Source: Chloroflexota bacterium (GTDB taxonomy: Bacteria; Chloroflexota; Chloroflexia; Chloroflexales; Roseiflexaceae). From it: 60,055 bases of DNA. The translations under genes and the position numbers were made by a program. The stretch lies in assembly GCA_018969485.1 (NCBI GenBank), contig JAGWYG010000012.1:1-60055 (forward strand). Reading direction: 5' to 3'. Shown here piece after piece: positions 5,742-8,214 of the stretch. Position 1 is the stretch's first letter. The number at the start of each line of letters is the position of its first letter. Below the pieces are notes generated by a model. The model saw nothing but the letters and a program-made list of their open reading frames with translations, was not told the origin of the DNA and did no database searches.

Positions 5742-6671
5742 TCAGGACGCCTCGAGCAGCGTCAGGATCAGCGCCTTCTGGACGTGCAGGCGGTTCTCGG
5801 CCTGGTCGAACACCAGCGACGCCGGGCCGTCGATCACATCGGCAGTGACTTCCTCGCCGCGGTGCGCCGGCAGGCAGTGCAGGAAGCAGGCTCCCGGCTC
5901 GGCCTGTGCCATCAACCCGGCGTGCACCTGATACGGTGCGAAGACCGGGCGGCGGCGCGCGGCCTCGTGCTCCTGGCCCATCGACGTCCAGACATCGGTA
6001 TAGACTGCATGAGCGCCCCGCACCGCCTCGGCCGGCGCGTGGCCGAGCTCGATCGTGGCATCGCTCTCGCCTGCCAGGCGCCGCGCCCGTTCGAGGATGC
6101 CGCCGTCGGGCTGGTAGTCGGGCGGGCACGCCAGCGCCAGGTTGACGCCGAGCAGGCCGCCGAGCAGCACCAGCGAATGGCAGACATTGTTGCCATCGCC
6201 GACATAGGCCATCCGCAGGCCTTGCAGCCGCCCATAGCGCTCGCGCAGCGTCAGCATGTCGGCCAGCGCCTGGCATGGATGCTCGCGGTCGCACAACGCA
6301 TTGATCACCGGAACCGTCGCGTGGCGCGCCAGTTCGACGACCGTGCTATGCCGGAAGACGCGTGCGGCGATCACCTGGACCCAGCGGCTCAGGTTACGCG
6401 CGACGTCGGCGACGCTCTCGCGCCCGCCCATGTCGATGTCATTGGCCGAAAGATAGCTGCCGTGGCCGCCGAGCTGTGTCATGCCCGCCTCGAATGCCAC
6501 GCGTGTTCGCAGCGAGGGCTTCTCGAAGACCAGCGCCAGCGTCTTGCCGCGCAACGGCGCGGCCGGATGACCACCCGCATGCCACTCGGCCTTCAGTGCC
6601 AGCGCCCGCTCGAGCAGTGCCTCAGCCGTGGCGCGATCCAGATCCTCGATCGAGAGCAGATGACGTAGCAT
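5742..6671 (-). CDS. argF: ornithine carbamoyltransferase
   Basis: Converts ornithine and carbamoyl phosphate to citrulline in arginine synthesis. The 309 residues match the family. The carbamoyl-phosphate loop reads FEKPSLRTRVAFE, followed by MGGRESVADVARNLSRW, the HPCQALAD motif and the catalytic HCLPAHRG loop near the C-terminus. The ATG at 6671 has GGAGG nine bases upstream; longer in-frame readings cross the promoter region and are rejected. It lies 12 kb from the arg operon and on the other strand. Its promoter is an extended -10 rather than the attenuated arg promoter. Confidence 0.96.
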   Translation of the reverse strand: MLRHLLSIEDLDRATAEALLERALALKAEWHAGGHPAAPLRGKTLALVFEKPSLRTRVAFEAGMTQLGGHGSYLSANDIDMGGRESVADVARNLSRWVQVIAARVFRHSTVVELARHATVPVINALCDREHPCQALADMLTLRERYGRLQGLRMAYVGDGNNVCHSLVLLGGLLGVNLALACPPDYQPDGGILERARRLAGESDATIELGHAPAEAVRGAHAVYTDVWTSMGQEHEAARRRPVFAPYQVHAGLMAQAEPGACFLHCLPAHRGEEVTADVIDGPASLVFDQAENRLHVQKALILTLLEAS

Positions 6672-6702
6672 TCCCTGAGCCTCCGCAACCTGATGTCGCC
6701 GC

Positions 6703-6711
6703 ATTCTATCA
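6703..6711 (-). promoter_or_regulatory. extended -10 promoter of argF
   Basis: On the minus strand, TGA precedes TAGAAT (6703-6708). The wider string GTGATAGAATGCG is almost repeated in front of selB. There is no good -35, as expected for extended -10 promoters. It is back to back with the ferredoxin promoter in a 63-base divergent gap. Confidence 0.6.
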
Positions 6712-6719
6712 CAGCCACG

Positions 6720-6728
6720 TGCTACAAT
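6720..6728 (+). promoter_or_regulatory. extended -10 promoter of the ferredoxin gene (leaderless)
   Basis: TGC-TACAAT, with the hexamer at 6723-6728. The expected start lies at about 6735, which is the A of the ATG itself. No Shine-Dalgarno sequence precedes the ATG, so a leaderless mRNA is likely. Confidence 0.6.
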
Positions 6729-6734
6729 GGACAC

Positions 6735-7028
6735 ATGATCGACGAACGACGGTTCCGCCTGTACCTGTGCGCTGCCATTCACTGCAGCGCCGCCGGGCGC
6801 GCCGCAGTCCACCGCGCGCTGGCCCAGCAGATCGCCGCCGCCGGCCTCGGCGACGCCGTCGAACTGCGCGACAGCGGCTGCCAGAACCGCTGCGAAGACG
6901 CGCCGAACCTGACGGTCTGGCCCGGGCCGGTGCGCTACCGCCGCCTTCAACCCGCCGACGTGGCGCGGCTGGTCATCGCCCGGTTGCACGACGACGCGCC
7001 ACCCTCCGATTCCGGCAGCGCGCGCTGA
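6735..7028 (+). CDS. thioredoxin-like [2Fe-2S] ferredoxin
   Basis: A 97-residue protein of the thioredoxin-like [2Fe-2S] ferredoxin family, related to the NuoE C-terminal domain. The four cluster cysteines are in the expected pattern: C11 and C16 in LCAAIHC, then SGCQNRCEDAPNL, with a hydrophobic VWPGPVRYR strand following. These proteins carry electrons in the cytosol, but the redox partner is not known here. It opens a run of iron-sulfur genes. However, it ends within one base of an inverted repeat and a new promoter, so mrp probably has its own control. The start at 6735 appears leaderless. Confidence 0.85.
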   Translation: MIDERRFRLYLCAAIHCSAAGRAAVHRALAQQIAAAGLGDAVELRDSGCQNRCEDAPNLTVWPGPVRYRRLQPADVARLVIARLHDDAPPSDSGSAR

Positions 7029-7053
7029 TTTCGCAAGGGAACGCTTGCGAAAT
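7028..7053. promoter_or_regulatory. 26-bp perfect inverted repeat, candidate operator of mrp
   Basis: ATTTCGCAAG (7028-7037), a 6-base spacer and CTTGCGAAAT (7044-7053) make perfect 10 bp arms. The site ends five bases before the -10 hexamer of the mrp promoter, covering roughly -20 to -45. That is where a repressor or activator would act. No T-run follows, so a terminator is unlikely. The cognate regulator is unknown. Confidence 0.7.
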
Positions 7054-7054
7054 G

Positions 7055-7063
7055 TGCTACAAT
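7055..7063 (+). promoter_or_regulatory. extended -10 promoter of mrp
   Basis: TGC-TACAAT (hexamer 7058-7063), with a start near 7070 and a 40-base leader containing GGAG six bases before the ATG at 7111. The -35 position is occupied by the inverted repeat and has no TTGACA-like hexamer. Confidence 0.6.
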
Positions 7064-7110
7064 CACATCTGCTGGCGGTCACGCTGCCGCCACGACGGTC
7101 GGAGCAGCTC

Positions 7111-8214
7111 ATGGGATTCTTCTCACGTCTCACCGGCGGCATCGACGAGCGGCGCGTACTCGCCGCGCTGTCGACCGTCCAGGAGCCCGAACTCGGCGGC
7201 GATCTCGTCAGCCGCAAGATGATCAAGGACGTCGTCATTCGTGGCGACCGCATCGCATTCGCCATCGAGCTCACCACGCCGGCCTGCCCGCTGAAGGACC
7301 AGATCCGCGACGAATGCCTCGCCGCGATCGCACGCGACCTCAGTGTCCCGGCGGAGCGGGTCGACATCAGCTTCACCGCGCAAGTCCGTCCGCGGGGCGG
7401 GCTGCTCGACAAATCCGCCGTGCCGGGGGTCAGCCACGTCATCGCCGTCTCGGCCGGCAAGGGCGGGGTCGGCAAATCGACCGTCGCCGTCAATCTGGCG
7501 GTCGCGCTCGCCGGCGAAGGCGCGCGGGTAGGGCTGCTGGACGCCGACATCTACGGGCCGTCGATCCCGCTGATGCTGGGCGTCAGGGGCCAGCAGCCCG
7601 AGGGCACCGTCCTGCCCGACGGGCAGCAGGCGATGGTACCGATCGCCGCCCACGGCATCACGATGATCTCGGTCGGGTTTCTCGTCGACGAACGGCAGCC
7701 CGTGATCTGGCGCGGCCCGATGGTCTCGCAGCTCCTGCGGCAGTTCCTCTACCAGGTCGCCTGGGCGCCGCTCGATTATCTGATCATCGACATGCCGCCC
7801 GGCACCGGCGACATCGCGCTGACGCTGACGCAATCGCTGCAGAACGTCGGACTCACCGGGGCCGTCTCGGTCACCACGCCGCAGGCCGTCGCCACCGCCG
7901 ACGTCGTCAAGAGCATGGAGATGTTCCGCAAGGTCGATGTGCCACTGCTCGGCATCATCGAGAACATGGCGTACTTCGTGGCCCCCGACACCGGCGCGCG
8001 CTACGACATCTTCGGCAGCGGCGGCGCCGCGCGTCTCGCCGGGCAACTCGGCGTGCCGCTGCTCGGCCAGATCCCGCTGGGGATGGCGGTGCGCGAGAGC
8101 GGCGATGCCGGCCGGCCGGCCGTCGCCGACGCACGCCCCGACGCCTACGGCGATGCCTTTCGCGAAATCGCCCGGCGCCTCGCGGCCCGGGTCAGTGTCA
8201 TGGAATACGCCTGA
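7111..8214 (+). CDS. Mrp/ApbC-family iron-sulfur cluster carrier ATPase
   Basis: A P-loop NTPase that binds and transfers Fe-S clusters, 367 residues. An N-terminal MIP18/DUF59 domain (about 1-90) contains TPACPLKDQI. It is followed by the deviant Walker A SAGKGGVGKST (114-124), the switch DADIYGPS, the DMPPGTGD motif and a C-terminal IFGSGG. The CxxC found in enteric ApbC after the ENM motif is replaced here by APDTG, so the cluster is held differently or on other residues. ATG 7111 is chosen for its GGAG. A longer frame from 7045 begins upstream of the predicted mRNA start. moaA follows 16 bases later. Confidence 0.92.
   Translation: MGFFSRLTGGIDERRVLAALSTVQEPELGGDLVSRKMIKDVVIRGDRIAFAIELTTPACPLKDQIRDECLAAIARDLSVPAERVDISFTAQVRPRGGLLDKSAVPGVSHVIAVSAGKGGVGKSTVAVNLAVALAGEGARVGLLDADIYGPSIPLMLGVRGQQPEGTVLPDGQQAMVPIAAHGITMISVGFLVDERQPVIWRGPMVSQLLRQFLYQVAWAPLDYLIIDMPPGTGDIALTLTQSLQNVGLTGAVSVTTPQAVATADVVKSMEMFRKVDVPLLGIIENMAYFVAPDTGARYDIFGSGGAARLAGQLGVPLLGQIPLGMAVRESGDAGRPAVADARPDAYGDAFREIARRLAARVSVMEYA

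Follow-up and report, generated by a model that had tools for sequence, protein, structure and literature searches.

A conserved inverted repeat at the mrp promoter is a putative operator of a SufR-like regulator in Roseiflexaceae-type Chloroflexales

Introduction

In a 60,055-nucleotide stretch of a Roseiflexaceae genome (contig JAGWYG010000012.1; the whole stretch is called the window below), a perfect inverted repeat sits directly against the promoter of mrp. Is the repeat a regulatory site and, if so, which protein reads it? A sequence-only reading of the window had taken it for the putative site of a dimeric regulator that senses iron, clusters or oxygen, and this idea is supported, as sites of the same type precede iron and Fe-S genes. 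What that reading did not foresee is that the regulator is likely SufR-like, not IscR or Fur, and that no suf operon was found in the window's own genus.

In the literature, the SufR operator is described as a CAAC-N6-GTTG inverted repeat (PMC8593673); from it, cyanobacterial holo-SufR represses suf and its own gene until iron runs short, oxidative stress sets in or the cluster is reduced (PMC8593673, PMC13421787).

Results

The inverted repeat and the mrp promoter

The features of the locus are as follows (positions in the window).

6735..7028, + strand: 2Fe-2S ferredoxin-like open reading frame upstream of mrp (NCBIfam NF041613, 3.8e-8, under the cut-off of that model)
7028..7037, no strand: left arm of the putative operator, ATTTCGCAAG, with half-site TTTCGCAAG at 7029-7037; the dyad is kept before mrp in relatives
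7038..7043, no strand: 6-bp spacer GGAACG; its length of 6 is the conserved property (spacer test)
7044..7053, no strand: right arm of the putative operator, CTTGCGAAAT (direct sequence check)
7055..7063, + strand: extended -10, TGC-TACAAT, of the mrp promoter (sequence check; same position in relatives)
7111..8214, + strand: mrp, the putative regulated gene, encoding an ApbC/NUBPL-type Fe-S cluster carrier with an N-terminal FeS_assembly_P domain

Direct inspection confirms a perfect inverted repeat, ATTTCGCAAG-GGAACG-CTTGCGAAAT, of 26 bp (7028-7053), which begins on the last base of the TGA stop codon of the ferredoxin-like frame (7026-7028), as had been described from the sequence alone. 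The same description let the repeat run from 7028 to 7063; its start was correct, but the repeat ends at 7053, and 7063 is the end of the -10. The gap to TACAAT (7058-7063), given as five bases, is four, GTGC (7054-7057). The extended -10 reads TGCTACAAT, and the ATG of mrp follows at 7111. The repeat was also said to occupy the -35 region, which holds for its place, but no -35 hexamer lies there: a promoter scan of 6600-7200 returned no sigma-70 pair with a usable -35. A dyad that abuts the -10 or covers the -35 is suited to a repressor, not to a classical activator. The product of mrp matches Pfam PF10609 (3.9e-95) and PF01883 (5.3e-19) and scores 330 bits with NCBIfam ApbC, slightly below the cut-off of 348.

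The GTGCTACAAT of the mrp promoter recurs at 6719-6728 of the window, six bases before the ATG of the ferredoxin-like frame (6735); such a -10-like element would give an almost leaderless ferredoxin-like transcript.

Taken alone, the mrp repeat is near chance level and statistically unremarkable. The window contains seven perfect repeats with arms of at least 10 bp and loops of 3-12; 20 first-order Markov simulations of the window give 4.1 (0-8) such repeats, and 0.65 are expected with a loop of exactly 6. These counts are what a chance palindrome would call for, yet comparison refutes that reading, which retains practically no probability, since the dyad keeps its position across many genera and sites like it precede genes of related function. 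Thus, the repeat is regarded as functional because it is conserved in relatives, not because of repeat statistics.

The dyad is conserved upstream of mrp

We detected mrp in all 60 genomes (own plus relatives), 53 of which have a usable upstream region; G010, G013, G014, G019, G024, G025 and G059 were left out for want of one. Conservation before mrp had been named beforehand as a test that could refute a regulatory site, and an N6 dyad with TTWCGAWAG-like half-sites, a consensus written only after the mrp sites were seen, lies 5-8 bases before a -10 upstream of mrp in 23 of the 53. Each of these dyads has p <= 0.013 against shuffles, and 19 are at the floor of 1/301. By clade, it occurs in 12/12 genomes of the own family (Roseiflexus and Roseiflexaceae MAGs) outside genus g8 and in 0/8 within g8, in 10/18 of family f4 (which includes Chloroflexus and Oscillochloris), in 1/9 of f3 and in 0/6 of f2. 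A spacer of 6 scores best: across 18 mrp upstream regions, including two without a site (G028 and G051), the mean best score is 15.83 at N6, against 11.22-12.67 for N2-N5 and N7-N12. At the same position, the promoters of the relatives have TATGC, TATGG or TGTGC ahead of TACAAT, TATACT or TATAAT. Genus g11 of f3 (L047-L053 except L051) has a different conserved stretch, CGACTTAAGTCATAGCTAGTCGTGCTATAAT, at its mrp promoter.

The dyad could instead end transcription of the ferredoxin gene before it, or form a hairpin in that gene's RNA, as it starts at the stop codon and its RNA folds with -18.4 kcal/mol (z -2.6). However, there is no T tract after the stem, no intrinsic terminator is called at the repeat and the region has no Rfam match. 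Moreover, the dyad is found before mrp in genomes in which no ferredoxin-like gene was found upstream (for example, G003, G009, G012, G015, G005 and G007), whereas genus g8 has the ferredoxin upstream of mrp and lacks the dyad. The element therefore belongs to mrp, and the terminator-only alternative that the sequence-only reading had allowed for fails; we consider a hairpin function extremely improbable.

Sites elsewhere in the genome

A search of the own genome (G000) with the mrp site, allowing up to three mismatches, gives four places against none in the reversed control: mrp itself, the promoter of a SufR-like gene followed by superoxide dismutase (SOD; contig C123), the promoter of a ferric-iron transporter (C207) and a position inside modA. 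The match within the modA-like frame is taken as chance, which leaves the promoters of the SufR-like gene (hereafter SufR2) with SOD and of the ferric-iron-binding ABC transporter as the only other intergenic near-copies found. No exact or flexible-spacer copy was found in this genome beyond the mrp site itself; the further sites surfaced at three mismatches and have right arms merged with TTGACA. A second own-genome pattern took part of its letters from these three sites, which makes their zero mismatches circular, and with up to three mismatches it gives 11 strand-hits against 13 in the reversed control. Extra matches in G000 (C183, L278) overlap open frames and are probably fortuitous.

The SufR2-SOD site, TTTCGCAAG-CACGTT-CTTGACAAT, lies upstream of the SufR-like gene, which is followed by the gene for an Fe/Mn superoxide dismutase. 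The transporter site, TTACGCAAG-ATTGTG-CTTGACAAA, is followed by TATACT and precedes the gene of a solute-binding protein (fbpA) whose best solved relative is the ferric-iron-binding protein 7w3w (6e-91). In both, the -35 TTGACA is at the same time the right arm of the site, and the distance from the end of the site to the -10 is 16 bp (SufR2) and 15 bp (fbpA) versus 5 bp at mrp, a shift of about one helical turn.

The other genome of the genus, G001, has the site before mrp and before an fbpA-type transporter gene; it is the one relative in which the transporter site was compared, the solute-binding proteins of other relatives being 28-38% identical. Where other genera have CGAWAG, all three G000 sites (mrp, SufR2 and fbpA) and both G001 sites (mrp and fbpA) read CGCAAG, a shared change of the kind that a single cognate regulator would call for. 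G001 has another element, TTTCGCAAG-CATTGT-GTTGACAAA with a -10-like TAGACT (G001:C239:8585; L281:1586-1609), ~220 bp before the frame of a small membrane protein, possibly a further target.

SufR2, a candidate regulator

SufR2 is a protein of 214 residues (G000:C123:85315-85905, minus strand) encoded by the leading gene of the SufR2-superoxide dismutase operon. Its best library match is SufR_cyano (NCBIfam TIGR02702), at 113.3 bits against an equivalog cut-off of 178.8; since it stays below this cut-off, a point against our reading, we class it as SufR-like and not as SufR. A Roseiflexus-like SufR2 scores 101.9 with the same model and the suf-linked SufR1 scores 79.6. The N-terminal part is a winged helix-turn-helix of ArsR/DeoR type (PF01022 HTH_5, 1.9e-8), and residues 3-78 of the AlphaFold model resemble ArsR/MarR-type winged helices (top match 1uly, Z 12.9, r.m.s.d. 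1.9 over 71 aligned residues). Among solved structures, a sequence search found no SufR chain and only weak ArsR-type matches.

Cysteines 161, 165, 174 and 202 are invariant in all 13 aligned SufR2 sequences (a fourteenth, L170, was omitted because its coordinates ran over a stop). The spacings of Cys 161, Cys 174 and Cys 202 are 13 and 28, identical to those of the three cysteine ligands of Mycobacterium tuberculosis SufR (Rv1460), for which PMC6034842 gives C203, C216 and C244 as required. Rv1460 heads the suf operon, whereas SufR2 precedes a SOD gene and has Cys 165 as a further invariant cysteine. The N-terminal winged helix and C-terminal cysteines are likewise shared with SufR of cyanobacteria (Synechocystis sll0088) and Streptomyces avermitilis, as are the N6 inverted-repeat layout of the putative operator and a site before the own gene (PMC8593673, PMC11995493). 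Compared with the SufR core CAAC described there, the core of the putative operator is CAAG-N6-CTTG in the own genus and GAWAG in other genera, N6 and CAA being shared. Unlike these proteins, SufR2 is encoded outside the suf locus, falls below the SufR_cyano cut-off, is present where suf was not found and has a predicted regulon of mrp, SOD and ferric-iron uptake.

The gene neighbourhood is stable. Superoxide dismutase, not suf, lies next to SufR2: it follows in the own genome and in 20/20 relatives fetched, and a wider scan places it within 400 bp in 42 of 46 loci. In 5 of the 46, in Chloroflexus-type genomes, mrp is the divergent neighbour of SufR2-SOD. The promoter of SufR2 itself carries a dyad-type site in all 12 own-family genomes examined (11 relatives and the own), with a TTWCGAWAG-like left arm, an N6 spacer and TTGACA as part of the right arm; G007 has TTTCAAAAG. 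Chloroflexaceae SufR2 promoters are without this -35 version of the site, which weighs against our reading, and some have a variant after the -10. SufR2-like proteins also occur in Abditibacteriales (39% identity) and Poribacteria (36%) MAGs (L266, L267), with no SOD in the locus.

SufR2, SufR1 and the suf genes

Neither genome of the window's genus (G000 and G001) yielded SufR1, SufC or SufB, which leaves SufR2 as the best candidate there. With completeness of 95.6% (G000) and 85% (G001), loss of suf in this genus is likely; SufB is detected in 23/26 family genomes and 14/14 controls. An IscU-like protein is present, and its G000 gene, on C114, has a rhodanese, a cysteine synthase and a Mov34-type gene as neighbours (names read by eye).

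Most relatives also carry the suf-linked SufR1, and the two proteins are distributed differently. SufR2 is present in 21/23 genomes with the mrp dyad and in 9/30 without a scored one (p 6e-6, uncorrected for kinship), the latter nine counting against our reading, while SufR1 is present in 20/23 and 29/30, respectively. Judged by gene content, the mrp dyad goes with SufR2 and not with SufR1.

A classical suf regulon extended to mrp, with SufR1 reading the site, would explain why the same kind of site occurs before suf genes in two relatives: a perfect dyad, TTTCGAAAG-N6-CTTTCGAAA, lies upstream of sufR1-sufC in G002, and TTTCGACAG-N6-CTGTCGAAA upstream of sufC in G004. We nevertheless hold this to be very unlikely. 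The mrp sites of G000 and G001 are perfect or almost so, and no SufR1 was detected in either genome. SufR1 was not found in G004 either (84% complete), it is present in nearly every genome without a scored dyad, and suf promoters elsewhere carry other dyads. In G002 and G004, SufR1 or another protein may share or own the site, with shared control in G002, and SufR2 may regulate suf in G004. The suf operon of G004 (L094) seems to begin with sufC, with no sufR1 between the perfect dyad and sufC. Chloroflexaceae sufR1 promoters (L109-L128) have another N6 dyad, approximately AATAAAAAAGG-N6-CCTTTTTTATT, before TTGACA, presumably the SufR1 operator.

Sites in relatives

A genome-wide search for similar sites, proposed in the sequence-only reading, bore out the expected link to iron and cluster genes, in the own genome by the SufR2-SOD and ferric-iron transporter promoters and in relatives by sites before suf, SufT, siderophore-type transporter and flavodoxin genes. 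With the first family pattern, derived from the mrp sites, most genomes have few matches, about as many as the control. G002 stands apart, with 11 strand-hits against 1 in the control and, for a second pattern, 17 strand-hits (14 places) against 1, though many of its sites coincide with TTGACAAA -35 elements, so that their right arms look more alike than they otherwise would. Ten of the 14 places precede suf, mrp, SufR2-SOD, five Peripla_BP_2 genes, one FecCD gene or a flavodoxin gene; the other four (L090-L093) are before or near genes without an evident iron link. Sites also lie before a SufT-like gene in G013 and an ABC transporter ATPase gene in G005. In G007, the second pattern gives 7 matches against 13 in the control, and those inspected besides mrp and SufR2 (L275-L277, L280) are not at iron genes. 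An extra match in G003 (L279), over an open frame, looks like chance.

The siderophore-type transporter and flavodoxin promoters of G002 (L268-L274) have, by eye, an ATTAG-N6-CTAAY-like palindrome over the -10, after each dyad, which we take to resemble a DtxR/IdeR box. Repressors of the DtxR/IdeR and Fur types control iron uptake and flavodoxin genes. The dyad might accordingly be read by another iron regulator (Fur/PerR, DtxR-like or Rrf2/IscR-like) with SufR2-SOD as a mere target, and both the kinds of genes behind the G002 sites and the presence of the second palindrome at each of these promoters would suit an iron-sensing repressor. On the other hand, the targets are similar but the operator type differs: the second palindrome suggests a separate element of iron-box type beside the dyad, the dyad itself has the N6 layout of SufR operators, and SufR2 is tied to it by the autoregulation sites in all 12 own-family genomes examined and by co-occurrence. 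We therefore regard a different iron regulator as unlikely. The two palindromic elements at these G002 promoters point to dual regulation, one through iron and one through clusters.

Discussion

We conclude that the mrp repeat is most probably the operator of SufR2, a putative SufR-like winged-helix regulator that would repress when loaded with its cluster. Starting from the observed site and its conservation, the three copies in the own genome, the gene order, the cysteines and a genus in which SufR1 was not found, we infer that SufR2 binds the site, that it carries a cluster and that holo-SufR2 is a repressor.

In the mechanism we propose, a SufR2 dimer would place one winged helix on each half-site of TTTCGCAAG-N6-CTTGCGAAA, against the extended -10 of mrp, and so shut RNA polymerase out of the promoter. 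The same protein would repress its own SufR2-SOD operon and the ferric-iron transporter operon. By analogy with SufR, the DNA-binding form would hold a [4Fe-4S] cluster through Cys 161, Cys 174 and Cys 202. Iron shortage or oxidation would strip the cluster and SufR2 would leave the DNA, so that Mrp for cluster delivery, SOD for protection and iron import would rise together. A similar logic of Fe-S cluster repression, with an operator over promoter hexamers, is used by RisR and Escherichia coli IscR of the Rrf2 family, a different protein family of which no member is implicated at the present sites; PMC9973013 describes such an overlap for RisR of Myxococcus xanthus.

SufR-type regulation itself is known; what appears new is a putative SufR-like operator with a regulon that lacks a fixed link to suf. 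In the open-access literature searched, we found no report linking SufR to superoxide dismutase in Chloroflexi, no related report on Chloroflexi or Roseiflexus regulons and, for SufR together with Chloroflexus, only an obituary. With modest confidence, we go further and recast the SufR-type protein as a global iron and oxidative-stress regulator of Roseiflexaceae-type Chloroflexales, which in the window's genus would have outlived the loss of SUF while its operator drifted from CGAWAG to CGCAAG at all known targets together. If so, a regulator from a family otherwise dedicated to the SUF machinery would govern SOD, Mrp and flavodoxin as well as the uptake of ferric iron or siderophore-type compounds.

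Within a single genome, the analysis names a specific putative operator and three targets that can be tested, and cultured relatives have orthologues. It also assists the annotation of iron regulation for a group of anoxygenic phototrophs. In Chloroflexales, a SufR-like protein appears to tie the state of Fe-S clusters to their delivery, to defence against superoxide and to the import of iron, and it appears to persist where suf was not found.
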